A stretch of DNA of 64,000 bases, taken from positions 1 to 64,000 of the forward strand of contig JACGCM010001594.1 of the NCBI GenBank assembly GCA_014058105.1, written 5' to 3'. The stretch comes from Kingdonia uniflora. Taxonomy: Eukaryota > Streptophyta > Magnoliopsida > Ranunculales > Circaeasteraceae. The position numbers and the translations under genes were made by a program. The notes under the pieces were generated by a model. It saw only the letters and a list, made by a program, of their open reading frames with translations. It was not told the origin of the DNA and made no database searches. Of the stretch, positions 1 through 50,335 are shown one piece after another. Within the stretch, counting starts at the first letter, position 1. Each line of letters opens with the position of its first letter.

Positions 1-552
1 ACCTCTATGGTCTTCCAGTAGAAAATCCAGTGTTTGATAATTTACAAAGCTTTCATTAAGCCATTTGAAACACAATAAAAATCTGAAAAGACTGCTATGT
101 TTTCCAATGTATGTTACAAAACATTTTCCCCCTACATTAGTATGTTTTGAAGGTGATATGAAGAAGTATGCTCAACAAGTCCGTAAGGTTATTGCTTTCA
201 AAACTATGCCTTATGGGGAGAATGTGGTGAATAGCAGTTGAAACTCTTATAGGAAATCGCATCTTAGCATCTCCATTAAATATTCACCAAATCTCACGTG
301 TTTCTACGGTACAAGTACTAAATAGCACCAAATAGTATTTGAGAAAACCTTTTTATTATTTTTTCAGGAACTTCAATGAGCGTCTATAATAACTAAATAA
401 AAATGTGCAACCAAGTAACCTATATATCTTTTGTGAACAACTTGATTTCGATGGATCTTAGGCAAAATTTAGTTTTAACAGCATCACCTGCCTCACGATC
501 TCTATATTTAGTGTATTTATTTCTACTTTATATTATTCACTAATGCATTTAG
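1..552. other. AT-rich flank, no gene recognised
   Basis: No convincing gene was found. A short plus-strand reading around 140-240 (ending in a stop near 240) looks protein-like but is too short to name. The composite transposon begins right after this stretch. Confidence 0.3.
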
Positions 553-720
553 TTAGAGCATCTTCAGCAGGGTTTGGGTTTGGGATGGGTTTGTCAACTC
601 AAACTCAAACCCAAACCACTACTTTTGACCTCCCAGCAGCACAAAAAACGGTGGGGTTTGGTGAGTTGGACTTGTTAGATGCTAATGGATTGAGCTCTCA
701 AACTAAAAAATGAGTTTGAC

Positions 721-771
721 GGTGTTCCTTTTACCGCGCGGTGTTCTTTTTCGAGAGGTAAAAAGAACACC
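721..771. promoter_or_regulatory. Subterminal palindrome upstream of ORF1, copy A
   Basis: A GGTGTTCCTTTTACC arm, a CGCG core and a second inverted arm GGTAAAAAGAACACC form a potential hairpin about 165 bp inside the left TIR and 97 bp before the ORF1 ATG. The same module recurs at 3958-3976 and 7146-7190, and in copy B. Candidate binding site for the element's own proteins (inference). Confidence 0.6.
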
Positions 772-867
772 ACTTATCATAAAGCTTGGCTCAGCTCTCT
801 CTAACTACCTCTTCTTTCCCAAGCCCAATTGGCAGAGCACAGAGGAGAACCTCTACGCTCTCCCCAA

Positions 868-2274
868 ATGGCAAACTTCGGCACCAGCAGTAATAACTCC
901 ATACCGTCGACCCCATCCTCCTCTACCCACATTCAACACCATTCTCTCAGTACCATCATCACAATTACTCTATACCTCTACACAACCAATCTCAATTCCA
1001 ATCACAGACCCCACGTCCGTTACCATGTCGCAAGAGGATACCTTCAAAGGAGAGTAATAAAATCTATTTATACTCTCTCAACCGCAATTCAAGCGTTTAG
1101 CCCGTACTATCAACCCTACCGGTCACTCAACCTCAAGGTTTCAGCCGCTAATTACTTTCAGCACAATTAAAGTGGCACAAATGCGTAATAAATGTTGAAG
1201 CGGCGGCGCCCGAGAAAGAAAAAGAAAAATGAAGAAAGAAAAGAGCACTCGCAAAACAAAAACAAAGTGTGCAAGTGTCAGAAGATGCTGAGTTTTTGGA
1301 CGAGACGGATGATGCTGAACTGCATTGGACGGATGCAGACTCCACGTGTCTCGCAAGGGCTGGGTAACAGCTTCTGCCAAAAGTGGACCGCACAAAAGGT
1401 TTCACTTTCTATCAAAAGGTCAACATTACCTTTACAGAGACCGCGAGTACCCCACACGACGATCATGGGGTCGACCAAAGCTCAGTGGTACCCTTAATGT
1501 GCAATGTGTGGCGTACAAGGGGATAGTTGCTCAAGTACGATTTCGGCACGACAGCGGGAAAACCGATGAAGATCGGGTACGTTCGAATTTCTTTTAACTC
1601 AATTTCGTTTATTTTTCTTGGATATACACGTTATTTATTTGTATTGGTAATTTTGCGAATGTGGAGGAAAACGATGGACACAAGATCTATCAAGGTATGA
1701 ATGGTGGTAATGATTTCAAACACTGTGAAGCGTATAGGGTTTTAGCGCGAGAACTGCGATGGGCCAACCTAAAGGATGATGGGTTGAACCAGCGGGAATG
1801 TACCAAGAAATGTAGCCAGGAGATCATCGCATAATTCTTCTCGGGGGAACTCGGTCGGATCAAACAATCTATCGGAGGACCCCAACGACCCACTACATCT
1901 CGATCCCGGGCCAAAATTCTGAATAGATGGTTCGTTGTATAAGGGTGGGAAGCAGACCTATCGGCCAAAAACTTTTAGAAAAAACTTGTAACACAAAAGA
2001 CCTTGGATGGTGTTGTTGCATCTAGTAACGGTATCCAAACAATGTGGATAAACTACGGTTAGAGAATAGACAAACGAAATAAGAAAAGGAAAGAAAAAGA
2101 GTGGAAACAAATCAACAATGGCAAGCCAAAATGGATTTGGAACAAACAAGGGAAAATTACAAAATTAGGATAAAGACCTGAGTAATCCTTCTGGACATCA
2201 ATTACAATACAGATCTGCAAAGGCAAGCTGGGGTCATAGAACGTCTGGCCAAGAGGGGCAGACCAGGTACTTGA
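868..2274 (+). pseudogene. PIF/Harbinger ORF1, Myb/trihelix-like protein, copy A
   Basis: In PIF/Harbinger elements, ORF1 encodes a SANT/Myb (trihelix-like) DNA-binding partner of the transposase. The ATG at 868 begins MANFGTSSNNS, matching the intact start of copy B at 38345. Around 1330-1600 the reading resembles the LARAW...QCVAYKGI...KTDEDR pattern of this family, but it needs changes of frame. A second exon near 1660-2274 contains NDFKHCEAYRVLARELRWANLKDD, typical of the ORF1 C-terminal half, with a GRPGT ending. Stops and frameshifts make it non-coding as it stands. It converges with the transposase downstream. Confidence 0.75.
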
Positions 2275-2639
2275 AGTGATGATGAAATGTAATTTAACTT
2301 TGTTGTATATATAAGTTTATTTCCAAGAATTTAGTTTATCTTCCAATAATGTATCGTTTGAATAATGTACTTTGTTATTGAAGAATGTAAAATTTTTTTG
2401 AAATGTTTATTCCGAGAATATTGCATTAAAACAAATACAAGATTAATACAATATCAAAAACTTGTTCAATAAGCTTGCACGACAGAAGCATTAAATTACA
2501 TTAATAACACTCATATAATACTTGATTGCAACACTAGGTTTGAATATTCCCTTCACGACCCACAATGCTCGATTAGATCATCTTTTAGATCAAAGTGCAG
2601 TTGTCGATTTCGAATACGGTTCATTTTAATATAAAAGAT

Positions 2640-3843
2640 TTATTGTTCTGCGTTGCGTACAATATTGAACTGTTCGCCTTCGATAGTTGAGGGATTGGAC
2701 GGATCGTAGTCTAAGTATGATAAGAATAAATCTCATTCCTCTTCGACGATCATATATGCATTATCACGCACGCCTTCATGACATTGTTCAAAACCTCGGG
2801 TTTCTACAATTTACCAGATTATTTATAATATTGAACTGTGATTGTAAAATCTCAAACGCCTTTACGTCTTTTCGACAAATTTCTTGGTGGAGAAAAGAAT
2901 TGTGTTTCACTGTAACCGGATTGGATATGGTTTGAACAAGTGTTCCCCATTTGGGGTATATGACATCACTAGGTAATAACCCATATCATAAGTTTTTTCG
3001 GCAATTGTATAATTGTAAGGCGGGGCGATACCATCGGCCAGGTCGGTAAAAAGATGTGATTGTACAGGACATTAATCATTGTTAGACCCTGATAACCCAA
3101 AAAAAACATGCTAAAACAAAGGTCATGTGAAGCTACCGCTTAAGAAGCAGTGTCGTCTTGGGATAATGACCAATAAATTGACCGTGCCAAGCTATGGGAC
3201 AATTTTTTTATATCCAATACATGCAATCAAGACTTCCTAACATGCCGGGAAATCCCGTGACTCTCCTATCCCTTTTAGCCTTTCGACGTCGGCCGCGTTT
3301 GATGCTCAAAGATATTCCTCGCCAAAAATTTGTATATCCGCAACACAAACCTTTCCATACTTAACAAGGTTGCGTTTTCTCCTATTCAGATATACTCGTC
3401 AAAAAGATATGCTACAACACCGTAGCTTAGGAAACGTAGTGCCGCGACTACCTTTTGGTACAGTGATAATCCCATAGTAGTAGCGTTGTTGGGTTTTTGG
3501 ACAAAATAATGATCATGTGCAACGACTGATCGAATATACGCATAAACATTTGTCTACACATATGAAAACGTAGCCGAAATTTGTCTAGCTCATATGTGCA
3601 CCCCGGATTGAAGTAGTCCCGCATAAATTGTAATGCCCCAATAGATGATCACGCTTCTTCCTCTTATCCTTACGGCCCATGACACTCCCGCCGTGACACA
3701 AAGTTGCATCATGTACTACTAAGTTTATTGTATTTTGGTGCAGAACGATCATTGTCGTCGCACAATCAAAATAAGATCGTCAAAGGATGACGACGATACG
3801 CGTGGAGGATCATCAATGGATGAAAAGATGATGAGGAAGACAT
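2640..3843 (-). pseudogene. PIF/Harbinger DDE transposase (DDE_Tnp_4 type), copy A
   Basis: Read on the minus strand from an ATG at 3843 (MSSSSSF), this is a full-length but heavily frameshifted relative of the copy B transposase. Recognisable pieces are the FRLRFHMCRQMFMRIFD helix-rich N-terminal part, which copy B has lost, then IFGEEYL, the GSNND segment around the second catalytic Asp region, FTDLADGIAPPYNYTIA and a final LTIEGEQFNIV. The first Asp motif is garbled (LGSLDCMHWI in copy B reads EVLIACIGY here). No intact protein is possible. A TATA-like TATATATAAAG lies upstream, just inside the inner TIR at about 4062-4072. Confidence 0.75.
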
Positions 3844-3957
3844 TTGAGGCTGTGGAGTTGAGAGAATGGAGTTGAAGGTGAGGGTGGGGTAACAAGTTTT
3901 TAGAGAGAGAAAAAGGTGTAAGATAGGGGAAGAGGAAGTGGTTGGGAAAATCAGTTG

Positions 3958-3976
3958 ACGCGGTAAAAGAAAACCG
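3958..3976. promoter_or_regulatory. GGTAAAAG motif upstream of transposase, copy A
   Basis: GCGGTAAAAGAAAACCG is a decayed form of the palindromic module found at the ends of the composite element. It lies about 115 bp before the transposase ATG. Confidence 0.4.
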
Positions 3977-4061
3977 TTGCCTCTTGATTTCCAACAACGG
4001 CTAGTTCCTCTGGTGGGTCCTTTACAATAGCTAGTTTTGGCATCACAACGACTACTTTTGC

Positions 4062-4089
4062 TTTATATATATGTTGGTTGGAGATGCTC
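4062..4089 (-). repeat. Internal TIR copy with TATA box, copy A
   Basis: Reverse complemented, this reads GAGCATCTCCAACC followed by a TATATATAAAG box. It marks the boundary between the ORF1/transposase half and the second-ORF/PMD half. The equivalent in copy B starts at 31648. Its flank (TAA) does not match the left-end TTA. Confidence 0.7.
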
Positions 4090-4159
4090 TAACAACAGGT
4101 CCTCTACTTGAACTCAACAATGCCGAGTTTTTTTATCTCTAACAAAGGATTCTTCGGTG

Positions 4160-4616
4160 GTATTTGGCTAGAATGAAGATTGTGCGCCGTGGCGCGTTCT
4201 GGCAGTATTTTGTTGATAATCTACCTCTCCGACAACTCAACTTCAATCAGTTATGGAATAGAGTTCATGTCTAATTTAGGGAGCACACAGAACTTCAATA
4301 CCCTCATAGAGATTTATACAACAGGTAGAATATTCTTAAGGTTAAATGTGATGAGTTTCATGAGATACGGAAGAGTATTGATAGACAGGTCAGAGGTGTT
4401 TCACTAGCCTATATTCTTCGCGAAGCCAGAGATGAATGGTATGAGAAATATAACCAGTCGTTCCCTTTCGAGATTCTATACAATATTTTTTTACCGGAAC
4501 TACGTCCCGCTTGATCCTCCTATAAATTATCGTCTAGAAAACTATGAACGGGATCCGTTCCCCCTTACTGAATGGTCCGAGTTAATCCTTACATCAGCCA
4601 TGAACGATGATTAAAT
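4160..4616 (+). pseudogene. Second small ORF of composite element (possible ORF1-like), copy A
   Basis: The same sequence occurs in copy B at 31135-31575 on the minus strand. The best reading has WQYFVDNLPLRQLNFNQLWNRVH, then a DLYNR..KCDEFHEIRKSIDRQ stretch, AYILREARDEWYEKYNQSFPF, and an end DPPINYRLENYERDPFPLTEWSE reached after a frame change. The layout (helix, basic helix, then AY...REA..Y) vaguely recalls SANT-type ORF1 proteins, but the identity is not established. In-frame stops in both copies show decay. It converges with the PMD gene, mirroring the ORF1/transposase pair. Confidence 0.45.
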
Positions 4617-4840
4617 TTAATTGTATCTATTTTGAGTTTCATTTTGTGCGTAGAACTACTATTTAAGAATTGTAATTGCATTTCTATTTAAATTCAAGAC
4701 TCAAAATAAATTGATTAATATTGATTTATATAAAGAAATAGAACATCAAGTCGTACAAGTACTTATATAGAGAAACAATATTCTACAATAAAAATTGTTC
4801 AACACTGATGTTTACTACAAAAACATAAAAAAACTTATAT

Positions 4841-7033
4841 CTACTGAGACGGGTCAATATCATCTCCAGTACCCGGCCTCCCTGTGGCTACTACCGGCTC
4901 CCCTAGTTCACGGACTATGTCTGCAGGTCCCCTGTCTCGTCCTCGCGCTACCTCTAGTGGCAGCGACACCACCCGTACCTCACACTCCCTCCATATGTAG
5001 GTTCTGAACATGATAAAGAAATTTCATTTAGATTTTGATAAAATAAATATAAAATTAAGAAATAAATAAATAAATACATAAATAAATTACTTACATGCGA
5101 ATATAGCTGGTCGTCTATACTGTCCATGTTCCTCCTTAGAGCGGTGTTTTTATCAGTCAAGTCCTGGATCGTTGGGGCGTCCAGCACAACTCTGCAAGGA
5201 CGAGTCGCCGCATACCATGAGTCAGGCACCACAGCTCCTTTGTGCCGTCGGAGGAAGACATGGGTGGCGGGTCCCTCAAGCGGGGGATGGGGAGCATCTC
5301 ACGCCTCCCTATCTATTTCATGTGCCACCCGGGTCTGGCCCTCCTCCTCGCAAGGCAAACTGAAGTCTGAGACAAGCTATGAACCTCTACTAACACAACC
5401 ACCACGAGTGTAATACCAACCATGAGTGCAGTGGGTCCGAACAAATTTATATTCCCTATCCTCTAGGAATCTATCAACAGGTGGCCTATCTCATAAGTTT
5501 GGTTAGCCAGTATGAGGCCGTAAGTCTCTCACTCATCTATCACAAACTGGTCACAGTCAACGAAGCTGGCCTGTCTCATGGCCTGCAAATCAGCTGGACT
5601 AAGATGTGGCAACATGTTAAGCGGAGGATCCAAATGAATACCCGCAGTGCCAGTCAAGTGCCTCCACAACATCTATCCCCAAGTAACACTCACAATTTTT
5701 ATTTAGGACTTGAAGTGGCATCCTCTTACGGGATAGGAGCGACGCGGTATGCACTCATCTAAATCTAATGCCGCAGATTTCGCCCAAGGTTGCCAGTTAT
5801 CAACTCAATAGTTTGGTGGTCAATGAGGTAACTGCCTAGAGTAAACAATTTGTTACATGATCATTTATTTTCTTTTTGTTCCCTTTCACCCATGCTTTGA
5901 GATGCGAATACGACGTGATCTTAGTGCTTCATTGACAATAAGGTGACCAACCCCACAATACTCGTAGAACCAATAATGCATTTCGGAACAACATAAAAAA
6001 CAATTATAAATTCGATTTAAGATATTTATTGGAAGATATTTAATTTGTAGTTTGTAAGGAAAAAGTATTAGTGTACCTCAAGAAGTTGTGAAAATCAAGT
6101 GATGGCACCCCCGGTCGTGACTGCGATATCCAAACCATGGTACAGAGAAGCAAGAATAGCAGAACCCTAGTCATATTCGGCAGCTTCGTCTAAATCGGCC
6201 ACGGCCGCGAGATATCTAAGCGGGACGGTGTTGTTGGCCGTTTGGAAACATAAATGTCCCATCATGAAGAGGATAAAAGCACGAACAATGGTAATATCAT
6301 CATCCCGATCATTTGTGATAGTCAAGTACATCCTCAAATGTGAAATGCTAACGTTCTCACTCTTTATATTGCAACTTTCGATGCGGGGAGCAATTATCTC
6401 GCGTTGGATAAAACACTCCAGCTGTCCTCATACGACACTTGTGCAGGATATCTGCCAATTGCTAATAATGTCAGCATATGGAAATCCATTAGAGTAATCC
6501 CTATCTTCGCACAAGAGAACAGAAAAATGTACGTTGTCGGCCACCAAAGCTCTGTTAGCGCCTGAATTAGCCGATTATCAGAATTACCCAAGCGTATATC
6601 CATAAAGCTCCCGAATATCTTCACCACGGGACCCTTATTGTCATAATTATGAAAATCTTCTTCCAAACTTTGATCATCGTAGTGAATGTGTCGTACGGAC
6701 GCATTGAATCCTGATTTTGTTTATTATAGCATTTTGTCAAACACTTGATTAACGGAAATTACAAAGTCACAATGTACTAAAAAACTTACTGTGAGTTCCT
6801 TACTAGTGTAATATATATGAGTAACACCGTCTAGGAGGCCGGTAATAAACCTGGTTGGGTAGTTTTCTTGGTGTGAGTGTAGTATGCCTTGGGTTTGTTA
6901 TACATCTTCGAATTCTACACTTTATTTCTTCCTTCCGGACCTCGACCGAATTACCGCTCGCTATGGATTTTTTGTCCCTCTAAACCCAAATAATTTACTG
7001 GCGTGTGGGTCTCCCTCTGACATCTCCATTTGA
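4841..7033 (-). pseudogene. Plant-mobile-domain (PMD/MAIN-like) gene in transposon, copy A
   Basis: Read on the minus strand from an ATG near 7033 (MEMSEGDPHA) to a TAG at 4841-4843 after DDIDPSQ. Clear segments are the N-terminal ENYPTRFITGL...THIYYT, then KIFGSFMDIRLGNSDNRLIQ with WWPTTYIFLF, and MDFHMLTLLAIGRYP, the F-C-E-x-TLxDxxMLTGLxxxG pattern of the aminotransferase-like plant mobile domain. The C-terminus has a short coiled coil (DLTDKNTALRRNMDSIDDQLY) and a basic tail. Several stops and frameshifts are present. PMD proteins (MAIN/MAIL) are plant nuclear proteins and the domain is known from transposons. The assignment rests mainly on the better preserved copy B. Confidence 0.65.
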
Positions 7034-7145
7034 TTTTTAAAGGAATTAATTTTTTAAAAATAAATACCTTCGAATTGAGAGAGATGATGAAGTAAAATGA
7101 TAATGAGTCGAGTTGGAGAAAATGAAATGTTAACAGTTGCAACGG

Positions 7146-7190
7146 CGGTGTTCCTTTTATCGCGCGGTAAAAAGAACACCGCGCGGTGTT
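7146..7190. promoter_or_regulatory. Subterminal palindrome upstream of PMD gene, copy A
   Basis: GGTGTTCCTTTTATC-GCGC-GGTAAAAAGAACACC followed by a second GCGCGGTGTT half-site. It lies about 165 bp inside the right TIR and about 110 bp before the PMD start, mirroring 721-771. Confidence 0.6.
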
Positions 7191-7204
7191 TTGATTTCTT
7201 TTAA

Positions 7205-7208
<4 letters not shown>

Positions 7209-7242
<34 letters not shown>
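7209..7242. repeat. (TA)n microsatellite
   Basis: About 16 uninterrupted TA units between the right subterminal palindrome and the right TIR of copy A. Confidence 0.9.
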
Positions 7243-7245
<3 letters not shown>

Positions 7246-7627
7246 CACGTCACAAACTCGAACTTACTACTGGGAGAGCCTGGGTATGGGTTGGGTTTTC
7301 TGTGGGCCCCTGTCATAGCCCACACCTAAACTCGCTCTTTCTGCTGGAAATGCTCTTAGTATGTAACCCTTACTAGAGTTAGGGTTTCACTTAGTTTTGG
7401 ATTTAAATTGGGAAGCTTTTGGCTTGTTTTTGCCTTTTGAGAGAGAAAAAACACAAGTTTTTATTTTTTAGATTTATCGTAAAGTTGAGTGTTGGTTCTA
7501 TCAATATACAAGATTTATCTCAAAGAAAGAAGATAGTGCTAGCTTTCCGGCCTTTTCAAAAGTTGCAGTCAGAGCTTCCTGGTTATTGGATTTCGAGCTT
7601 CCTGGTTATTGGTTCAAAGTTATTTTA

Positions 7628-8590
7628 GATGGGTTTCTTACAGCCTTCAATTGTCCCAGTCCTCCTCCGTCATTCTTGGCATTTGTCCTTTGATAGGCAG
7701 ATGACTGATAAACTTACATAAGTACCACTTTCTTATTCCATGAATATGATTGATTCTCTTCATGGTGCTTCTTTATTCTTCAAGCTAGATTTGCAGTGTG
7801 TACCATCATATTCGCATGAAACCTAGGGATGAGTGGAAACTCGACCTCAAAGACAACGAACGGGATTTATAAATGCCTTGTGACGACTTTGGTCTCTCCA
7901 ATTCCCCTCTACATTTACAAGGCTTATGACGAAGATACTTCGCCAATTTTCGTTAATTACTACGGTTTATTTTGATGACATTCTTATTTATAAAATTTCC
8001 AAAGCTAACCACTTGCAGCATCTTAAGATTATTAGGTATTTTCGCGAAGAGAGAAGCTCACATTGAACCTAACTGCTCTATTTAATTAATACGTCAGGTG
8101 TAATTTGTGTGGATTAGATAATTTTGCAAAAAAGTGTGGATTAGATAAAGGTTTGCTCTATTTTAGATTACCCTATATGCCCCTACCACCGTATTTAGGA
8201 CTTCCTACCTTCTGCCGCCATTTTTGATGCATATAAACATAGATTCACACTTTTTAGCAAAATGGGTTACAGGCATCTTTTCAGTTTAGATGATAAATAG
8301 GGCAAAGATGACTTATTTTTTAGTATGAAGTTTTTTTATTTTGTGGTTCAATACACTTGGCAATAGCATTATTTGACTCACCAGGAGTTTATGTTATAGA
8401 ATCAGATCATGCTGCTCTTAAGTTTATCAACTCTCAACCAAAGGTGAGCTATTGGCATTCGATGTGACTTAACTCTGTTTATGTTTATACTCTCCAGTTC
8501 CTACACAAAAGCAGGTAGCGAACAACAGGTTGCCGATGCTCGCGAAGGATGCAGATTTTGGGCGTTTCTTCAGAGATTGTTTAGAACATC
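7628..8590 (+). pseudogene. Ty3/gypsy reverse transcriptase/RNase H remnant
   Basis: Scattered frames give IDSLHGASLFFKLDL near 7750, an AFPSTF.RLMTKILRQF piece, then YFDDILIY around 7970 (the YxDD polymerase site) followed by HLQHL. After an unrelated AT-rich insertion (about 8050-8330) a LKFINSQPK and a SEQQVADALAKDADF stretch match the end of a gypsy RNase H. No LTRs, gag or integrase were seen nearby, and there are many stops. Old fragment lying downstream of the Ca2+-ATPase gene. Confidence 0.7.
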
Positions 8591-8599
8591 ATGGGGCGT

Positions 8600-9589
8600 T
8601 TGGTGATTATAATAGATAAATATTAAATGGGAAGACTTTATGTATTGAGGTTTATTTTTTCCAATACCAAATTATTATGAGATAGATGTAGAAGTTCGGG
8701 AGAAAGAATGAAGAAGATTTGTACTTATCCGGAAGAAGTAGAGGGCCCTTGATGAGATATACCATCTTCTGTAAAAAGGCTGAAAATAACCACCACCCTC
8801 TCGAGCCCCAAAACGCTCCATTTTGTTAAAGGATCCATCTCAGGTTTGTTTCTCCAGTAACACGGTTGAAGTTTGATCGTAACCTACAACAATAATGGAA
8901 GACTCATTAGTCTAAATTATATAACCTATTTAAAGCTTAAAGAGCCTTGAACCTTACCTGCTTCTATTGAATCTTTAATAAGCTCTTGTACATACTCTGC
9001 TGAAGGAGAACTTCTACTCTTGTACATACTCTGCTGCTGAAAGGAGATTATTGACAGTTATATTTATCACCAAGTTTGTTCAAGCCAATAGGTATATCAC
9101 ATATACCTTCTTTTGCTTACACTAGCTCTAGCTGCTTGTTTAGGAGTTTCCCAGTCCTCACCCTCAGCAACAATGTTTTCCGCTTTTCTATTTCTGTCAA
9201 TAATCTCCTTTTTTTTTATTCTCCATTCGATCATGTCTTGAATTGAACTTTCTCGTCTTATAATCTCAACAACCTTCTAAAGGATGCAGAGAGGTATGTA
9301 TAATGTTTTAAATTTCGTGCACTCGGCAAGCAACACTTGCATTCAACTGGGAATGTTGCTTTGCTCAATAGATTCATGCATAACTGTATTTACAATAAAG
9401 GAGCAAAAAAAAATTGTCCTGCCCCCCAAGCAGAAAAAATCAAAAAACAAAACCATGGTAGGGGCAACTATGAATGGACCCGGCCGGGAATGATATACCC
9501 CTGCAGTGCAAACCAGGACATGGTAATAACAACTGATGTTTTCAGATCAATGACCATACGATTGTAATCTTTTCCTATCATGCCAGCTC
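8600..9589. other. Non-coding, likely 3' flank of the Ca2+-ATPase gene
   Basis: AT-rich. A direct duplication containing CTTGTACATACTCTGCTG lies at about 8986-9036. On the minus strand a short exon-like stretch with a GTAAG-type donor can be read here, but the product is not recognised. The proximal part (about 9400-9589) probably includes the 3' UTR of the ATPase gene. Confidence 0.3.
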
Positions 9590-28402: not shown

Positions 28403-28738
28403 TACAGAGTCGATTAGTATCAGCTACTATCTTTTGCTCCATTGAGAGCATCTCTAGCAGCCAGTTACAGTTTGGGTGTGGGCTCTAAGTGGGGAGGGGG
28501 TCCACAAAAAACCCAACCCACACCCGGCCTCTCCAGCAGCCAGTTGCAGTTGGTGACGTGTATTTTTTATTTTTTTATTTAGAAGAGATCAAAACACCGC
28601 GCGGTATTCTTTTTACCGCTGTTTGCACTGTTAACCCCAAATAAAACCCAACTCGAGTTTTTAACAAATTTTCTTCCTCTCTCTTTCTCTCAAATCGAAG
28701 CTATACCTGAAAATTTTCCCAATTTCTTTTAAAACACA
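28403..28738. promoter_or_regulatory. Divergent intergenic region, Ca2+-ATPase / PMD gene
   Basis: 336 bp between the ATPase ATG (28402, minus) and the PMD ATG (28739, plus). 43 bp are original ATPase leader; the rest is the transposon end, including the palindrome at 28593-28619. Any present ATPase promoter must lie in the transposon or further out (inference). Confidence 0.6.
28593..28619. promoter_or_regulatory. Subterminal palindrome upstream of PMD gene, copy B
   Basis: ACACCGCGCGGTATTCTTTTTACCGC, a decayed version of the module at 7146-7190, in the same relative position (about 150 bp inside the TIR). Confidence 0.6.
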
Positions 28739-30876
28739 ATGCATATGCCAGAGGATGACCCACACTCCAGTACATTACCTGGGTTTAGAGTAACAAGAGA
28801 TCCAGAGCGAGCCATAACTCGGTCGAGGCCCGGAAGGAAGAAAAAGCTAGTAGAATTTGAAGATATCCAACAACCTATACCAAACTCACCCGAAGAAAAC
28901 TACCCGCTGAGGTTTATTACTCAACTTCCATACGGCGTCACTCATATCTATTACACTGGCAAGGAGCACACGGTAAGTTTTAGTGTAATTGTGAATTTGT
29001 TATTTCCATAAATCAAGTGTTTGACAAAATGCTCCAATAACATAATCGGGATTCGATGCGTGTGCACGGCACATTCACTGCGGTGATCAAAGTGTGGAAG
29101 GAGATTTTCACAATTCCACCTGTAAGGGATGTTGCGGTGAATATATTCGGGCAGTTTATGGATATACGTTTGGGCAATTCTTATAATCGCTTAATTCAGG
29201 CGCTTACATAGCGTTGGTGGCCGACCACGCACACGTTTCTATTCCCGTGTGCGGAAATAGGGGTTACTCCTCTCGATTTCCAGATGTTGACATCATTGTC
29301 AATCGGCTGATATCCGACGCAGGTGTCGTATGACGACGTATGGAGTATTTTTATCCAATGCGAGGCAATTGCTCTCCAACATTGATTCCAGCCATATAAA
29401 GAGTAGAAACGTCAGCATTTCATATTTGAGGATGTACTTGACCATCGCAGCTGATCGGGAGGATAATATTACTATTGCTCGTGTTTTTATCCTCTTCATG
29501 ATGAGACATTTGTGGTTCTAAATGGCCAACGACACCGTCCCGTTTGGATATCTCGCGACCGTGGCCAATTTGGATGAGGCTGCCCAATATGACTAGGGTT
29601 CTGCTATTCTTGCTTCCCTATACCATGGTTTGGATACCGCAGTCACGACCGGGGGTGCCATCACTGGATTTGCCTAACTTTTGACGGTACACTAACACTT
29701 TTTCCTTATACAAATTAAATATCTTCCAATAAACGTCTTAAATAAAAATTTAATTATTTTTTATGTTGTTCCAAAATACAGTATTGGTTTTACGAGTATT
29801 GTGGGATTGGTCACCCTATTGTCAGGGAAGATGTTAAGTTCTCAGCCTATTCGTACCTCAGAGCATGGGAGAGGGAGAACAGGAAGAAAACAAATGACCA
29901 GGTAGGCAATTTGTTTATGCTAGACATATATCACATTGACCACCAGATTATTGAGACGATCACCTGGCGACTTTGGCTAAAATTTGTGGTGCCTAAGTTA
30001 GATGACGTACGGAGAGCGTCGCTTCTGTCCCGTATGAGTATTACTTGGGGGATAGATGTTGGAGGTAGTTGACTGGCACTGCGGGTATTCCTTTGGATCA
30101 TCCTCTTAGCATGTCGCTACATCTTAGTCCAACAGATTTATAGGCGATGAGACAGGCCGGCTTCGTTGACTGTGAGCAGTTTGTGATAGGGGAAAACGAG
30201 AGACTTACGCTTCATACTGGGCTAACCAAACTGTGTAGAAAGCCCTATGTTGACAGATTCCCAGAGGATGGGAAATATAGATATGTTTGGACCCTCTGTA
30301 CTCAGGGCTGGTATTACACCCGTGGTGGTGACGTTAGCGTCGGTTCATAGCTTGTCCCAGGACTTCAGTTTACCTGGCGAGCCTAAAGGGATAGATTCAG
30401 GGTGGCACATGGAATAGACAGAGAGGCGTGAGCTGCTCCCCATCCACCGCTTAAGGAACCCGCCAGAGATGTATGCCTCCTATAACGTAGAGGAGTTGTG
30501 GAACCTGACTCATGGTATGCGGTGACTTTGCCTTACAGAGTCTGCGCGGGACACCCAGAGGATACAAGAGTTTACTGATGAGGTAGCTACTCTGAGGAGG
30601 CACTTGGACAGTGTAAACGACCAGCTATATGCGCATGTAAGTAATTTATTTATGCTTTTTTTCTTCTTAATGTCATATTTATTTTGTCAAAATATTTATA
30701 AATTTTCTTTATCTTGTTCAGGACCTACATCTGAGGAGGGGCATGACGTACGGATGGTGCCGCTACCACCTGGAGGTGGCGCGAGGATGAGGCAACGTGA
30801 ATCTAGTCTGTTCACCAGGGGAGGAGGTACTAGCCGCAGGAGGCGGGGTACTAGAGATGATTTTGACCCGTCTTAG
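28739..30876 (+). pseudogene. Plant-mobile-domain (PMD/MAIN-like) cargo gene, copy B
   Basis: The ATG at 28739 (MHMPEDDPHSS) opens a basic N-terminal region and ENYPLRFITQLPYGVTHIYY, with donor ACG|GTAAG at 28973. Exon 2 gives IFGQFMDIRLGNSYNRLIQ, FLFPCAEIGVTPLDFQMLTSLSIG, RAFILFMM-type and YSCFPIPWF-type pieces in shifted frames: the F-C-E/TLxDxxMLTGLxxxG core and second half of the PMD fold. Further exons read YWFYEYCGIGHPIVREDVKF, YLRAWERENRKK, and AMRQAGFVDCEQFVIGENER. The C-terminus has a TLRRHLDSVNDQLYAHVS coiled coil, an intron, and a Gly/Arg-rich basic tail ending DDFDPS. Several in-frame stops. PMD proteins such as MAIN/MAIL are nuclear and act in genome stability and TE silencing. 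Confidence 0.7.
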
Positions 30877-31134
30877 TAGATATAAGCGTTTTTGATGTTT
30901 TTGTATACATAATATTTTATTGTAAACATCAGTGTTAAACAAATTCTATTGTTAATTTTGGGTTTGTTTCTCTATATCAGTACTTGTACGACCTGATGTC
31001 ACATTTTTTTTATATAAATCAATATTAATCAATTTATTTTGAGTCTTGAATTTAAATAAAAATGCAATTACAATTCTTGAAATAGTAGTTCTTCGCACGA
31101 AATATAACTCAAAACATATACAATTAAATTTAAT

Positions 31135-31575
31135 TCATCGTTCGCGTCTGATGTAAGGAATAAACTCGGACCATTCAGTAAGGAGGAGTGTATCCCGTCC
31201 ATAGTTTTTTAGCCGATAATTTGCAGGAGGATCAGGCGGGATGTAGTTTCGGTAAAAAAATATTGTATGGAGTCTGGAACGGAAAAGGCTGGTTGTATTT
31301 GTCATACATTTCATCCCTGGCTTCACGGAGAATATAGGCTAGTGTTCTGACCCGTATATTAATACTCATCCGTATATTATGAAACTCATCATACTTAGCC
31401 TTAATAACATTTCACCTATTGTATAAATCTCCAGGAGGGTATCAAAGTTTAGTGTGCATCCTAAATTAGACATAAATTCTATTCCATAACTTATTGAAGT
31501 TGAGTTGTCGAAGAGGTGGATTATCAACAAAATACTGCCAGGACGCTGCCAGGGCGCAGTCTCCATTCTAGCCAA
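31135..31575 (-). pseudogene. Second small ORF of composite element, copy B
   Basis: Counterpart of 4160-4616. Contains WQYFVDNPPLRQLNFNKLWNR, YILREARDEMYDKYNQPFPF and ends NYRLKNYGRDTLLLTEWSEFIPYIRRER, with frame changes. The end EWSEFIPYIRRER followed by TGA seems to be the original C-terminus. Function unknown; possibly an ORF1-like DNA-binding protein. Confidence 0.45.
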
Positions 31576-31647
31576 ATATCACCGAAGAATCCTGTATTAG
31601 AGCGGCAAAATTTGGCATTGTTAAGTTCAAGTAGAGAAATGTTATTA

Positions 31648-31675
31648 GAGCATCTCTAGCCAACATATATATAAA
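31648..31675 (+). repeat. Internal TIR copy with TATA box, copy B
   Basis: GAGCATCTCTAGCCAAC followed by ATATATATAAAGC. Same position relative to the transposase as 4062-4089 in copy A. Confidence 0.7.
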
Positions 31676-31797
31676 GCAAAAAGTAGTCGTTGTGGTCCAA
31701 AACTAGCCGTTGTGATCCAAAATAAGTAGCCAGTTGTGAAGGACCCACCAGAGGATGTAACCGTTATTGTTTGAGTATTAAATTTAAAATGAATTTT

Positions 31798-31960
31798 TCC
31801 AATGTCTATTCGAACAGACTATTTGTCTGTTCGAACAGACCCCTTTTAATTCCAACAAATTTTCCACTTGAGCAGTTTTATTTGAATAAACCCAAAGTCT
31901 ATTCGAACAGATTTTGGCCTTAGCTATTTTATTCGAATAGACCTTATATATATTCGAAGA
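31798..31960. repeat. TTCGAA-centred palindromes in transposase leader
   Basis: Repeated GTCTATTCGAACAGA-type units, including the perfect 16-bp palindrome GTCTGTTCGAACAGAC near 31827-31842, in a stretch absent from copy A. Confidence 0.6.
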
Positions 31961-31976
31961 AAATCAGGGATTTGGT

Positions 31977-32013
31977 GGTGAAAAGAACACCCCGCGGTGT
32001 TCCTTTTACCGCC
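31977..32013. promoter_or_regulatory. Palindromic module upstream of transposase, copy B
   Basis: GGTGAAAAGAACACC and GGTGTTCCTTTTACCGCC around a CGCG core, 117 bp before the transposase ATG. Confidence 0.6.
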
Positions 32014-32129
32014 AAATCCCTAATTTTCAAGACCCATATCTCTTTCTTCCCCTTTTTATACTTATCTCTTTAATTGGAAACTTGTTCCCCATCTGGTATT
32101 ACACCCTACTCTCAACTCCACACCCTTAA

Positions 32130-33001
32130 ATGTCTTCTTCATCATCCGATTCATCCATTGGTGATCCTCCACATATATCGTCGTCCTCCTCTGAGGATCT
32201 TATCTTTGATTGCAGATCATTTTGACGGGTATATCCGAATAGGAGAAAGCACAACCTTCTAATGTGTGGAAAGGTTTTATGTTGTGGTTATACAAATTTT
32301 TGGCGAGGAATATCTTCGAGCCCCAAACGCGGTCGACGTCAAAAGGTTAAAAGCGATTGGAGAGTCACGAGAATTTCTCTGTATATTAGGAAGCCTTGAT
32401 TGCATGCATTGGATATGGAAAAATTGTCCCATAGCTTGGCTCGGTCAATTTACTGGTCATTACCCCAAGGCAATACTGATTCTTGAAGTGGTAGCTTCAC
32501 GCGACCTTTGGATTTGCCATGCTTTTTTTGGGTTACAAGGGTCTAACAATTATATCAATGTCCTGCAACAATCACATCTTTTCACCGACCTGGCCGATGA
32601 TATCACCCCACCTTGCAATTATACAATTGCCGGAAAAACTTATGATATGGGGTATTACCTAGCAGATGACATATGCTCCAAATGGGGGACACTTGTCCAA
32701 ACCATATCAAATTCGGTTACAGCGAAACAATTTTTTTTCTCAACAACAAGAAAGTTACCAAAAAGACATAGAAAAGGCGTTTGGGATTTTACAATCTCGG
32801 TTCATTGTTGTAAAAAATCTGGTTAAATTGTGGAAACCCGAGGATTTGAACAATGTCATGAAGGCATGCGTGATAATGTACAATATGATCGTCGAAGAGG
32901 AATGCGGTTCATTCCCATCATACTTAGACTACAATCCGGCCGATCCCTTAACCATCGAAGGCGAACGGTTCAATATTGTATGCGAACGCAAAACAATATA
33001 A
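32130..33001 (+). pseudogene. PIF/Harbinger DDE transposase, copy B
   Basis: DDE-superfamily nuclease that would cut at the TIRs. The ATG at 32130 (MSSSSSDSSIGDPP) is followed by an internal deletion: the N-terminal helical region present in copy A is missing and the sequence joins directly to GYIRIGESTTF, a stop, then IFGEEYLRAPNAVDVKRL. Catalytic motifs: LGSLDCMHWIW (first Asp) and ASRDLWICHAFFGLQGSNN (second Asp). After a frameshift near 32740, YQKDIEKAFGILQSRF supplies the Glu region. It ends with CERKTI and TAA at 33001. Defective through the deletion, one stop and one frameshift. Confidence 0.85.
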
Positions 33002-34319
33002 TTTTTATATCGAAAATGAACTACATTCGAAGTCGAAAACTGCGCTTTGATCTAAAAGATGATCTAATCGGGCATTTGTGAGCCGTGAAGGGAAATCTTC
33101 AAACCTAGTACTCCATTTCTTGTATTTTCTGAGTGTTCTTCATGTAATTTAATGCTTCTTGTCGTACAAGTTTATTAAACAAGTTTTTGATATTGCATAA
33201 ATCTTGTATTTGTTTTAACGCAATATTATCGGAAATAAACATTTAGAAAACAATATTACATTCTTCAATAGCAAAGTACATTATTCAAACGATTACATTA
33301 TTGGAAGGTAAACTATATTCTTGGAAAGAAAACTTCTATATATAGCAAAGTTAAATTACATTTCATCACCACTTTAAGTACCTGGTCTGCCCATCTTGGT
33401 CAGACGTTCCATGACCTCCGCTTGCCTTTGTAGATAGTATTGCAATACTGGCCCAGAAAGATTACTCAGGTCTTTATCCATGATTTTGCTTGTTCCAGTT
33501 TCATTTTGGCTTGGCATTGTTGATTTGCTTCCGCTCTTCTATTTCTTTTTCTTCTTTCGCTTGTCTCTTTTTTAACCATAGTTCATTCAGCATTGTTTGG
33601 ATATCGCTGCCAGATGCAGCAATACCATCTAATGTTTTTTGTGTTACAAGGTTATTTCTAAAGAGTTTTTGGGCGATGGGCCTGCTTCCACCCTCATACA
33701 ACGAGCCATATAATTAAGAATTTGGGCCTATTGATTGAGGTGTAGGTGGGCTGTCGGGGTCCTCTGATAGATTATTTGATCCGACTGAGTTCCCCAGAGA
33801 AGAATTGTCCGATGTTCTTCTGGTTATATTTCTTGGTACATTCCCTGCATGGTTCAACCCATCATCCTTTAGGTTGGCCCATCGCGATTCTCGCGCCAAA
33901 ATCTTATACGCTTCGCAGTGTTTGAAGTTATTGCCGCCATTCAAGCCTTGATAGATCTTGTGCGCATCGTTTTCCTACAATTCACAAAATTACCAAATAC
34001 AAATAAATAATGTGTATATCCACGAGAAATAAACAAAATTGAGTTAAACCAAATGGGGAACGTACCCGATCTTCTACTATTTTCCCATTGCTATTCTTAA
34101 ATCGTTCTTGAGCAATTATCTTCTTGTATGCTACACATTGTGCATTAAGGGTATACTACTGAGATTTGGTCAACCCACTTGATCGTCGTGTGGGGCACTC
34201 GGGGTCACTGTTAAAGTCAATGTTGACCTTTTGATAGAAAGTGAAACCCTTTGTGCAGCCCACTGTTTGGATAGAAGCTGTTACCCACGCCCTTGCGAAA
34301 CACGTAAAGTCTGCTTCCG

Positions 34320-34808
34320 TGATCCAGGAGGATCTTGGTAAATTGGAAAATTACCCAAAGTCATTCGAACAAGGTTGAGAGTCGTTTGAACGACCCAATT
34401 CCACTTTTCTAGAATTTAGCCTAGGAAACCCAAGTCGTTCGAACGACTCCCAGTTTCATTCGAACAAGTTCTCAACTTTATAGAGTTTTAGACCAATTAG
34501 GCATAAAGTCGTTCGAATAAGTTTAGAAGCCATTTGAACGACTTTGGCGTAATTTATGATTTTCAGGCGTAGTTTTGCCTCGAGCTCCGTTCTTTTATTA
34601 TTTCGAGTTCCCTAGTATATAAAGGGAACTTAGGTTATTTTTTTACCTATGTTACATCTAGAAAAAGTTCTGAGGAAGAACTTAGGGTTTAGAGAATTAT
34701 CACCATAATTATTTTGTTTTTAGTAATTGAATCTCCTATTTTCCCAACCAATTGGTGTTCTTCATAATTTTTCTGCTAACTAGAGCTTTTTTATCATATT
34801 ATGGATTA
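34320..34808 (+). repeat. 5' LTR with TTCGAA palindromes
   Basis: Contains several AAGTCGTTCGAACGACT-type units (about 34352-34545) and a TATA box GTATATAAAG near 34615. Confidence 0.9.
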
Positions 34809-34958
34809 AGTGGTATCAGTTTTCCAGTTACAATCTTCAGGGGTTGATTATGGTTTATGGTCTTTATATGTAACCATCTCAAACAAACGAAGGAGAAGCT
34901 AGTGAGTCTGTTGACGATTCATCGCAAATCTAATTCGAAGAAGAAATGCGATTTGGAG

Positions 34959-35980
34959 ATGGGCGATTCCAACATTCAACTCATAACTTTAGAAATGACA
35001 GTTTCTAACCTAACTTCTACTGTAGGGGAGTTGGTAGAACAATTGTGTCTCACGAACCTCGCGAAGGCTTCTGCTTCAGCGACGCAGTGAGGCCGCTCTC
35101 ATCGGCGAGGCCGCTTAAGGAAGAAAGGGGTTATGGAGGTGGATGGAGACAACAATTTTATGAAGATCAATAGTGATTCTGGTGATGCCAAATCCGATAA
35201 GGAGCGATCGGGTATTGGTAAGTCATCGAATCCTATTCGTAATCTTCGTATCAATTTCAAGATTGAAATTCTGGTATTCGACTGTTCGATCGATGCCGAG
35301 AAGTTGGATAATTGGTAAGATAGGTTAGAAACTTATTTTTTCTTTTATGAATACTCCAATGCTCAGCAAATATGCTTTCCTACGATAAACTTTGCAAGTC
35401 ATGCACTCATGTGGTGGAAATCTTATCAGAAACACCACGATGTAGGAAATTTGGGTTGGAAAGAATTCTTGGTATTAGTCCGAAAGTAGTTTTATCCGAT
35501 TGGGTATGAGTAATAAAGATGGTATAAATGGCACAATTTGTGCCAAAAGTTTGAGCAATCCGTACAGGAGTACACTACAACGTTTTATAACCAAGCTTTG
35601 GTTTTGGACATTGATGTGGACTAGTATGAGATGTTCATAAAGTACATAGGGGATTTGCCGGAGTCTATTAGGAGAGTGTTGAAGCTCTTTACTGTGGCCA
35701 ATATTGAGGACGCTACCGTGAAAGAAATTGCCATTGAAGGCAAGTACTTGAAGAGTGATAAAGAAGGCGATAAGATCAAGTCGGGGTACAAGTCAAGTTA
35801 GATACACGAGCATAAGGGAGAGGCCAAGTGAGAGGGGTCTTCGTCCAAGGAGTTTCATTGCAATCATTATAAGGCGAGTGGGCATATTTATGATTATTGC
35901 TGGAAACTTTACCTAGAGCTTAGGCCAAAGAAGGAGAAGAGCAATAAAAAGAGATATGCACTAATCGCAGAGGTTGTTGA
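34959..35980 (+). pseudogene. gypsy gag
   Basis: MGDSNIQLITLEMTVSNLTSTV gives the N-terminal coiled part. NLRINFKIEILVFDCSIDAEKLDNW is homologous to the capsid segment of the intronic element. HCNHYKASGHIYDYCW is a zinc knuckle with its second Cys replaced by Tyr. Stops interrupt it. Confidence 0.75.
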
Positions 35981-36020
35981 CCTCCTAGATTTAGATAAAC
36001 CAAACCCTAAGCTTACACTT

Positions 36021-36584
36021 ATGTTTCAGCAGACTCTAGCTACCGAGGAGGAGAGTCGGGAAGAACTTTTTCATGTAAGTATTCCGGTGAAGCAAAGTTT
36101 AGTCGAGGCCATTGTGGATCCGGGTAGTCAGAATTTTTTTATTTTTGAGGCGTTGGCGAAGAAGATGGGTTTGACGACTACAGCTCATCCTAAGCTGTAT
36201 GGTTTAGGGTGGATTCATAAAGATATGGACTTGATGATCACGAAGCAGTGTATATTCAAGTTTGCGATCACTGAAAGGTTTATTGACGAGGTGACATATA
36301 AGGTGGTTCCTTTGGATGTCTGTCAGGTCATCTTGGGTAGCCCTTATCTTTGGGACCAAGATGCGATTCATTACCGTAGAGCTCGCAAGTATCGTCTTGT
36401 GAAGGAGGGAAATGAGTTCCATATCAATGCTTGTAAGGAGCATGTCACTACGTCTAATTTAGTAACGGTGACTCAGGTGAAGCGGTTGGTTAATGCGAGA
36501 GGCAAGTTTGTGTTATTGATACGACCGGTTCAAGAGGGTACGTCGGCTAGCGTGTTGTCTCTAATAATAATGTCTTATAAGTAA
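36021..36584 (+). pseudogene. gypsy aspartic protease region
   Basis: Open for 187 codons. AIVDPGSQNFFI carries the D-x-G-S active-site loop (Pro in place of Thr/Ser). KMGLTTTAHPKLYGLGWIHKDMDL and SPYLWDQDAIHYRR follow, as in the intronic copy. It ends where the RT should begin, because of the internal deletion. Confidence 0.75.
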
Positions 36585-37264
36585 TAAACTGGCATAGGGA
36601 AGTTACAAGAGGAGGTTGTGGTACATTCCGATCATAAACCGTTCTAGTTTTTAGCTACACAGTCCAAGTTACAGCAAGCTCGTCAGATAAAGGGGATGTC
36701 ATATCTCTAACAATTCCCCTTGATTATACAATATAGGAAGGGAGTAGACAACAAAATTGCTGATAGGTTATCTTGACCCCCATTACTAACTACTTTTGCT
36801 ATGTTGGTTTCTATGCAGATACAACCTTTTGTTACGTTAGGGTATGTTGTAGAATATGATAATCCCAAGGGGCGTAGTGTGTTTTGCCATAAATTGTTGT
36901 AAGGTAAGACATGTGAGTATGAATTAGATTTACCGCCTTCTATGCAGATATATTCAGTGATTACTGCCAAATATTTGAAGCTGTTTGAGCCATCTCTTTT
37001 AGATGAAGACTCTACAATCGATACTCGCCTATCGTCAATTAATGACTTATGGATGGATGGAGTAGATCCGTTGTAGGAGGATAGAATTCTAGAGAGGAAA
37101 GTTCATACTACAAGATGGGGTGGTATTGAGTCATTCCGCATTGGGAAGAAGGGTCAGCTACCTAGTAAGTCGAAGTGGTACAACAGGAAATTGGGCATGA
37201 CCGCATTCCTACATCTCCAATTCTATCTTGAATAGGAGCTCAAGGATCCTAAAGAGGGGAGCCA

Positions 37265-37826
37265 TGATCTAGGAGGATTTAAGGAAATTGGAAAATTACC
37301 TAAAGTCGTTCGAACGAGGTTGAGAGTCGTTCGAACGACCCAATTTCACCTCTCTGGAATTTGACCCAGGAAACCTAAGTCGTTCGAACGACTCCCAGTT
37401 TCGTTTGAATGCCCTTTTTCATGCTCTCTGGAATTAGGCCTATAGAAAATTTTTGTTCAAACGAATTGTCATACCGTTCAAGCGAGTTGTCAACTTTCTA
37501 GGGTTTTAGACCAATTAGGCGTAAAGTCGTTCGAACGAGTTTAAAAGCCGTTCGAACGACTTTGGTGTAGTTTGTGATTTTTAGGCATAAATTTGTCTCG
37601 AGATTCGTTCTTTTATTATTTTGAGTTCCCTAGTATATAAAGAGAACTTTGGTTATTTTTCTACCTATGTTAGATCTAGGAAAAGTTTTGACGATGAACT
37701 TAGGGTTTAGACAATTATCATTGTAATTACTTTATTTTTTGCAATTAAATCTCTTATTTTCCCAACCAATTGGTGTTCTTCGTATTATTTCTGCAAACTA
37801 GAGCTTCTCTACTGTATTGTGGATTA
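37265..37826 (+). repeat. 3' LTR with TTCGAA palindromes
   Basis: Same layout as the 5' LTR but longer, with extra TTCGAACGA units (about 37303-37562). Preceded by the purine tract AAAGAGGGGAGCCA. Confidence 0.9.
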
Positions 37827-38435
37827 TTCCGTCCAATGAAGTCCAGTATCATCCGTCTCGTCCAAAAACTCAACATCTTTTGGCACTTGCATGCTTTGTC
37901 TTTGTTTTGCGGGTGTTCTTTTCTTTATACCTTTTCCTTTTTCTTTCTGGGGTGCCGCCGCTTCAACAGGTATTGATGCATTTGCGTTACTTTGATGGTG
38001 CTGAGTAAATTCACCATGGAATAGATAGTTCTGAAAGTAATTTGGAGGTTAAAAACCTTAAGGTTGAGTGAGCGAATAAGGTTGATAGTACGGGCTAAAT
38101 GCTTGAGGTTACGGTTGAGAAAATGTAAATGGATTTTGATATTGTCCATAACTGGGATCCCCTTGCGATATGGTAAACTTAAGTGGGGTTTGTGATTGAA
38201 ATTGAGGTTGGAATTGTAATGGGTTGTGGTAGAGGTATGGAGTGAATTGTAATGATGGGTGTTGAGTGAATGGTGCTGAAGGTGGGTTATGGGAGAATGG
38301 AGTCAACGGTGTAGAGTTATTACTACTGGTGCCGTAGTTCGCCATTTGGCTCTATGCTTTGCAATTGGTTTTGGGGGAGAAGTAGTATCCAGGGAGTGAT
38401 TTAGAGAAATCATTGAGATTGGAGGAGTTTTGATT

Positions 38436-38500
38436 ACTGCGCGGTATTCCTTTTACTGCGTGGAAAATACGGGCGGTAAAAGGAACACCGCGCGGTAATC
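38436..38500. promoter_or_regulatory. Subterminal palindrome upstream of ORF1, copy B
   Basis: GCGGTATTCCTTTTACTGC and GGCGGTAAAAGGAACACCGCGCGG, inverted halves about 170 bp inside the right TIR and just upstream of the ORF1 start at 38345. Confidence 0.6.
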
Positions 38501-38888
38501 CAAATACGGCCAAACTCATTTTTTTTAGAGTTTGAGCTCCTCACACTCGGTTTGGTTCTGGCATGTACACCTCTGCAAACCCACACCTATTTTTGGGTTG
38601 CTGGGAGGCTCAAAGTGTGAGTTTGGGTTTGCAAACCCAACTCAAACTCCTATCTTGCTGGATATGCTCTAACTAGAGCATCATTTGACTTTAAAAGTGG
38701 CTAGGTGAGCCAACAGAGTCAGCTCACCTTAGCAAGTAACTGCACCATGTCATTTTTGAATTCCGAATTTTCCCCTTGAAAATACATTTAACAATTCCAA
38801 ATCATTTTACTATTGTTGAGAATAAAAGCAATTTTATCTACACTAATATAATATCATGCATCTACACATGCATCTACATAAGATAAAC

Positions 38889-50203: not shown

Positions 50204-50335
50204 ATCTTTCACTGCATTCAACTCACAGGGAGGCTACACGAGTATGTAGTCGACATCCAGAAGTTCTTTGAAGAAGAAACTAAAAGAAAGGAAGTTGAAC
50301 AAGAGAAAAGACAATGCCAAGCTCGCCATCTTTAC

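Follow-up and report, generated by a model that had tools for sequence, protein, structure and literature searches.

The question raised by this locus was whether a PIF/Harbinger transposon moves together with a gene of the plant mobile domain (PMD) type, or whether that gene only lies beside it. The locus is part of a stretch of 64,000 nucleotides of Kingdonia uniflora (GenBank assembly GCA_014058105.1, contig JACGCM010001594.1, positions 1 to 64,000 of the forward strand), called the window below. The element is present there in two copies, A (556-7355) and B (38669-28446). The transposing unit appears to be a composite of 6.8 kb that includes the PMD gene, a reading to which we give a probability of about 0.87.

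Structure of the element in the window

Copies A and B are mutually inverted and have, exact to the base, a common order: open reading frame 1 (ORF1), PIF/Harbinger transposase, inner terminal inverted repeat (TIR), TAAYAAC, a second open reading frame (ORF X), PMD gene and outer TIR (Table 1). The original prediction, made from the letters without database searches, had described two inverted copies with this order, and self-comparison of the window reproduced them with ends matching to the base. Positions 550-1333 were aligned with 38675-37828 (69% identity), 1329-3412 with 34320-32212 (84%) and 4024-7356 with 31713-28445 (78%). Homology between A and B runs across the inner junction and ends at the outer TIRs. 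Within the window, the 300-base flanks of both copies matched only themselves.

Copy A begins with GAGCATCTTCAGCAG and finishes with CTGCTGGAAATGCTC, and the TTA predicted on both outer sides was seen at 553-555 and 7356-7358. On its own strand, copy B is preceded by TTA, begins with GAGCATATCCAGC, finishes with GCTAGAGATGCTC and is followed by TCA; the TGA and TAA given earlier for its outer ends are these same flanks read on the plus strand. At the inner junction, GGTTGGAGATGCTC ends at 4089 and is followed by TAACAAC in A, and GGCTAGAGATGCTC ends at 31648 and is followed by TAATAAC in B. GAGCA-type termini were present at the left, inner and right ends of A and B and at most of the ends found elsewhere. 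Copy B measures 10.2 kb because a long terminal repeat (LTR) retrotransposon is nested at about 34320-37828. This insertion interrupts ORF1 of copy B (34317-37828) and has LTR-like direct repeats at 34459-34808 and 37477-37826 (85% identity); its inner part also resembles 21848-23249 (67%).

Table 1. Positions of the features of copies A and B in the window
Feature	Positions	Strand	Domain
TTA target-site duplication, left of copy A	553..555	+	
Outer left TIR of A, GAGCATCTTCAGCAG	556..570	+	
Subterminal repeat, CGGTGTTCCTTTTACCGCGCGG type, left end of A	720..751	+	
ORF1 of A, broken	1260..2280	+	
PIF/Harbinger transposase of A, broken	2480..3860	-	Plant_tran PF04827
Inner TIR of A, apparently not used as an end	4075..4089	+	
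TAACAAC spacer of A, constant part of the element	4090..4096	+	
ORF X (second ORF) of A, broken	4120..4620	+	
PMD gene of A, broken, with inferred introns	4840..7030	-	PF10536
Subterminal repeat, outer right end of A	7145..7187	+	
Outer right TIR of A, CTGCTGGAAATGCTC	7341..7355	+	
TTA target-site duplication, right of copy A	7356..7358	+	
Copy B, with nested LTR retrotransposon (~34320-37828); own-strand flanks TTA/TCA	28446..38669	-	
PMD gene of B, broken	28739..30900	+	
ORF X of B, broken	31100..31640	-	
Inner TIR of B, then TAATAAC	31648..31662	-	
Transposase of B, broken, without N-terminal part	32100..33160	+	
ORF1 of B, 3' part	33350..34320	-	
ORF1 region of B, 5' part	37829..38370	-	

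Junction and inner TIR in the genome

Genome counts were made in the assembly of 1,003,380,622 bases. The junction, for which a genome search had been proposed, was found in many copies and not at a single locus: a 31-base pattern made of the inner TIR and TAAYAAC gave 389 matches at up to two mismatches, and the same pattern read backward gave none. A 301-base junction query gave 693 first-look candidates, and all 40 that were scored had at least 87% identity; four of these 40 come from the A locus, as copy A and the three duplicates.

The exact inner TIR (24 letters) was present 142 times (control, 0). Among the 100 listed places, it was followed by TAACAAC in 57, by TAACAAC with one mismatch in 33, with two in 9 and with three in 1. 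Thus, 99 of the 100 listed inner TIRs, from a total of 142, continue into the spacer at no more than two mismatches. The pattern was closed with 'not G', so that a few cases may escape it, and the survey covers exact TIRs only. Since the inner TIR almost always runs on into TAACAAC, it was considered a part of the element and not a free end, and it apparently does not serve as a working end. The three letters that follow it are TAA (TAG in locus L025), whatever the outer duplication. The earlier statement that the inner flank is TAA and that the left half alone does not look like the inserted unit is borne out by this survey, in which the listed copies run through the inner TIR instead of ending there.

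Outer ends and flanks

Twenty further junction loci were read. Five are duplicates that share flanks: L009, L010 and L011 repeat the A locus, and L016 and L019 the L012 locus. With A and B included, and the A locus (A, L009-L011) counted once, 17 independent loci were available. Both outer ends are kept in six of them (A, B, L018, L021, L023 and L025). The duplication is TTA/TTA in A, L018, L021 and L025 and TAA/TAA in L023; the same three letters, TTA or TAA, thus stand on both outer sides in five of the six two-ended loci, as anticipated for other copies. The flanks of these six loci are mutually unrelated. Only the left end was recognized in L020 and L026 and only the right end, with TTA or TAA, in L013, L015, L017, L022, L027 and L028, and no clear outer end was seen in L012, L014 and L024. 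Homology does pass the ends among A, L009, L010 and L011 and among L012, L016 and L019. The A locus with its flanks (window 1-9140, L009, L010 and L011) occurs four times in the assembly, at 94-98% identity to A, and L009 and L010 are 99.9% identical; these repeats are duplicated or unmerged haplotype contigs.

Linkage of the two halves

A 30-mer of the transposase gave 985 genome matches and a 30-mer of the PMD gene 975, at up to three mismatches (controls, 0). Neighbouring pairs at 300-5000 bases were then collected from the exact listed places (100 for the inner TIR, 100 for the transposase and 81 of 100 for the PMD gene). The 25 pairs obtained (12 TIR-PMD, 8 transposase-TIR and 5 transposase-PMD) were all in the order and strand of the element; none was reversed and none was on opposite strands. 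Some copies were counted in several lists and some pairs are loci already read. As a check free of the junction, the best 120 Kingdonia PMD gene models were aligned to the window. Five of them (P0041, P0056, P0065, P0115 and P0120) extend on the same strand into sequence of the left half, where the matches of P0065 are weak (E 2e-4 and 6e-4). P0089 extends into ORF X, antisense (E 3e-4). Together, the fixed junction, the matching outer duplications and the near-equal marker counts agree with the predicted movement as one 6.8-kb unit.

Several points weigh against this reading. The junction count (389) is far under the gene-marker counts (985 and 975), and some copies may lack the junction; its limit was stricter (2 mismatches of 31) and its stretch is less conserved than for the 30-mers. 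Because the loci were picked by their junction, they could only be composites, and the 30-mers come from the same copies. Only 6 of the 17 independent loci retain both ends, and the duplication of copy B, TTA/TCA, differs by one base. No empty site was found when the joined flanks were compared with the fetched loci and the window. Among the gene models, P0020 has the PMD gene joined to ORF1 the wrong way round for the element, and P0120 contains two PMD stretches. None of the 120 listed PMD models matched a read locus at 97% or more over 40 residues, so that the models derive from other copies. Finally, ORF1 had no Myb/SANT match above the Pfam cut-off, and its N-terminal piece was without a Myb match.

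Genes of the element

Frames of both copies were scanned against Pfam with X placed at stops. The transposase belongs to Plant_tran PF04827 (E 7e-26 in A and 3.4e-53 in B). The assignment of the second gene to the PMD family was upheld by profile matches to PF10536, which exceed the cut-off in A (4.8e-9, 36.3 bits, curated cut-off 34.9) and in Kingdonia relatives (105.6 bits for P0001 and 100 bits for P0002); the two matches in B (3e-7 and 6.8e-6) are under the cut-off and come from single broken frames. ORF1 of B had weak NAM-associated matches under the cut-off (0.011 and 0.027), and ORF1 of A had none in the three frames scanned. ORF X had no Pfam match above the cut-off, only sub-threshold ones, including Myb_DNA-bind_3 (0.084, L013 copy), and no homolog in the protein collection (six candidates, none scored). 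Its structure prediction was weak (mean predicted local distance difference test score, pLDDT, 63; predicted template modelling score, pTM, 0.35). That ORF X might be a second ORF1 was rejected, as profile comparison with both ORF1 parts gave a probability of 0.1%; against the N-terminal part of ORF1 it performed no better than 20 column-shuffled controls. No integrase, reverse transcriptase or other retroviral domain was detected in the nine copy A frames scanned, the PMD gene had no match among solved structures, and the transposase had no relative in viral contigs.

The protein search with the PMD gene gave 189 matches at E 0.001 or better, and the best 120 of these 189 are all from K. uniflora. 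For the transposase, none of the best 120 of 243 protein matches was named Kingdonia. Many Kingdonia gene models annotated as 'aminotransferase-like plant mobile domain' are likely to be transposon genes, some of them chimeric. In P0063, P0115 and P0119 the PMD is combined with an ABC transporter, protein kinase or magnesium-transporter domain; these models are likely annotation chimaeras with the present transposon. P0050 joins a PMD gene to a relative of the hAT transposase found at 44191-46233 of the window.

All copies read are broken today: every match to the PMD gene or the transposase in the 20 fetched loci contains at least one stop, intron stops included, and most have frame changes too. 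Column majorities were drawn across copies. That of the transposase (11 copies) stays open in a single frame along its 381 matched residues and has, aligned to a Harbinger transposase, the stretches DCMHW, NNDI and ERAFG, which we take to hold the catalytic D, D and E. In that of the PMD gene (8 copies), the part aligned with P0002 holds two stops, of which one falls in a stretch absent from P0002 and read as an intron and the other is at a Trp codon. A further stop lies in a C-terminal piece matched by the longer P0001 only. The PMD majority is almost open over about 500 residues. To judge from these majorities, the founder of the present copies probably had an intact transposase and a PMD gene that was complete or almost so.

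Amplification and selection

The median Kimura two-parameter (K2P) distance between copies was similar in the two halves, 0.164 for the left and 0.178 for the right. Trees of both halves (nine copies) had terminal branches of ~0.06-0.13 and inner branches of 0.002-0.018, a few of them supported. Such nearly star-like trees point to an amplification burst, and the element likely spread in a burst of about a thousand copies. Substitution rates in other plants are 6.5e-9 to 1.3e-8 per site and year; with these borrowed rates, the burst would date to about 6 to 13 million years ago. A codon-position test of shared versus single changes detected no constraint in the PMD gene, the transposase, ORF1 or ORF X. 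The absence of such a signal is expected in a burst, where the test is uninformative.

Possible role of the PMD gene

According to the relevant passages of PMC5418596 and PMC8616336, the silencing of transposable elements depends in the host on the PMD proteins MAIN and MAIL1. PMD-C genes were captured twice by Mutator-like elements (MULEs), and the authors of that work speculate, in the part consulted, on an anti-silencing function (Ikeda et al., 2017; PMC5418596). By analogy, the PMD protein of the element would interfere with the host MAIN/MAIL1 silencing pathway, which would favour amplification. This proposed role is doubtful, although retention of the PMD gene in a 6.8-kb composite during a burst would agree with a benefit. 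The codon-position test gives no sign of selection on the PMD gene, which counts against it.

The composite could also be mobile while the PMD gene and ORF X are passive passengers between working ends, with no benefit to the element. We hold this to be somewhat short of an even chance. The lack of codon-position constraint among copies speaks for it, as does the presence of at least one stop, intron stops included, in every PMD and transposase match of the 20 fetched loci. On the other hand, the PMD column majority is nearly open over about 500 residues, so that little or nothing of the gene had been lost when the burst started. The PMD and transposase markers also remain near 1 : 1 although larger PIF/Pong elements moved less in yeast: in the portion of the source used here, an assay with a 7,126-bp PIF/Pong element had smaller elements excised and inserted more often (PMC10288884).

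Origin of the composite

All three ends, left, inner and outer right, have a TIR of the GAGCATCTYCAGC type in common and also a subterminal motif close to CGGTGTTCCTTTTACCGCG. The motif was scored, out of 19, in A, B, L018, L021, L023 and L025, in this order, with shuffle maxima of 12 to 14. Scores were 19, 18, 16, 16, 17 and 11 at the left end, 14, 10, 11, 17, 17 and 15 at the inner end, 18, 16, 17, 15, 13 and 17 at the outer right end, and 10, 10, 10, 10, 10 and 9 after the junction. The shuffle maximum was exceeded in 5/6 copies at the left end, 5/6 at the outer right end, 4/6 at the inner end and 0/6 after the junction. Comparison of the left and right ends scored 51 in A and 38 in B (shuffle maxima 25). 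Since it bears the subterminal motif of the family, the outer right end is likely a genuine end of the element's own family and not a lucky TIR. For the same reason, fusion of two related elements was favoured over read-through capture. The original prediction had the element capture a PMD gene and a second ORF beyond its original right end; the composite with its PMD gene is real, but the phrase 'beyond its original right end' is doubtful, as the outer right end carries the family motif in five of six copies.

In the proposed course of events, an autonomous PIF element would have been joined to the right half of an adjacent element from its own family, one that bore ORF X and the PMD gene. 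The left end of one fused element and the right end of the other would have formed a working pair, and the inner TIR would be a relic end that is passed over during transposition. The predicted ORF1 and transposase would work on the outer TIRs together with the subterminal motif common to the ends, so that the whole unit would be cut out and inserted at TWA by its own predicted transposase. The full scenario, in which a PIF/Harbinger lineage fused with a PMD-bearing sibling, skipped the inner end and was driven by PMD counter-silencing to a burst of ~1000 copies, which would be the third case of PMD capture among DNA transposons and the first for PIF/Harbinger, is put forward tentatively and is on balance improbable as a whole.

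Alternatively, the PMD half may have been gained when transposition read through the original right end and stopped at a TIR-like sequence that happened to lie in the neighbouring host DNA. In favour of this, the inner TIR is followed by TAACAAC alone and not by the left TIR of a second element, and the inner end still resembles an old right end. Its difficulty is the outer right end, which has the family motif above the shuffle maximum in five of six copies and not a TIR alone, and the left-right scores of A and B, well separated from their shuffle maxima. We regard read-through as unlikely, with an appreciable chance all the same. Less probable still is the insertion of a PIF left half near the left end of a PMD element of the same family, followed by deletions that removed the left TIR of the latter. 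Two right ends and one left end would be accounted for in this way, but TAA follows the inner TIR also in copies with TTA on the outer left, the sequence beyond the inner TIR shows no trace of another left TIR, and no intermediate was found. It can hardly be held that only the left half (556-4089, 3.5 kb) is a true transposon, with the PMD half as flanking DNA spread by segmental duplication: although the left half resembles a normal PIF element, with two TIRs and the inner-end motif in 4/6 copies tested, and the assembly repeats the A locus, flanks included, the junction pattern was counted 389 times, the flanks of the six two-ended loci are unrelated, 99 of the 100 listed inner TIRs are not free and the outer-end duplications match. 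Segmental duplication of one locus was ruled out by the junction matches and the unrelated flanks, and the left half alone as the mobile unit by the listed inner TIRs that continue into TAACAAC.

Comparison with known systems

PIF/Harbinger elements have a TWA duplication, mostly two ORFs, a TIR starting with A or G and a length of about 4.1 kb (PMC4482050, in the section consulted). The present element resembles these two-gene elements (PHIS) by its TWA duplication, its TIR starting with G, its Plant_tran DDE transposase and its adjoining ORF1. It differs from them by a length of 6.8 kb versus an average of about 4.1 kb and by the extra inner TIR, ORF X and PMD gene inside the unit. With the MULEs that captured PMD-C, as presented in part of PMC5418596, it has in common that a DNA transposon bears a PMD. 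Unlike them, it has a 3-bp TWA duplication, a PIF transposase, a separate PMD gene unfused to the transposase and ~1000 marker matches. A MULE with PMD was excluded on account of the Plant_tran transposase and the 3-bp TWA duplication. The Ty3/Gypsy retrotransposons with PMD-A, described in the same part of PMC5418596, are likewise mobile elements with a PMD as an extra gene. A member of this group was excluded, since self-comparison revealed no direct terminal repeats flanking A and the nine A frames held no retroviral domain. Pack-TYPE elements, PIF/Harbinger ones among them (PMC8903248, in the passages seen), are also TIR transposons that hold gene sequence. They are without transposase, whereas here the unit has its own, near 1 : 1 with the PMD gene.

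In two-ended composite transposons or macro-transposons, the outer ends of two elements mobilize the intervening DNA. The present composite differs from them in that the inner second left end is absent and that it became a stable, amplified family.

No PMD gene in a PIF/Harbinger element was found in the open-licence literature searched, which does not cover Repbase, and a description elsewhere is possible. No such element is described in the consulted portions of PMC8616336, PMC7156037, PMC5418596, PMC8903248 and PMC4583175. The element adds a further kind of transposon with PMD, at ~1000 marker matches, and is an independent repeat of the association known from MULEs and Gypsy elements. It offers a large natural set of copies in which to study whether PMD serves transposons against silencing. 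It is also a composite PIF/Harbinger element that apparently exchanged the right end it uses and spread as a single unit, with a relic end in its interior.

Other observations

A second LTR element, partly related to the one in copy B, occupies 18676-23919; direct repeats at 18676-19035 and 23562-23919 (84%) flank an integrase zinc-binding match at 20186-20677 (-). A reverse transcriptase match (PF00078) was obtained at 51027-51686 (+), and the adjoining long frames at 49718-50755 had no Pfam match. Positions 44191-46233 (-) encode a hAT transposase (BED finger, RNase-H fold and dimerisation region) in two adjoining stretches of the same frame with a stop between them. A 555-aa open frame at 25206-26873 (-) corresponds to a P-type cation ATPase (E1-E2_ATPase, 3e-39) and was the one non-transposon match among ten long frames scanned. 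Two of the read junction loci contain a TIR-bounded piece of ~390 bases with GAGCATCTCCAACA ends (L016:1933-2320, which is 7681-8068 in element orientation, and L019:5296-5680), possibly a small non-autonomous relative.

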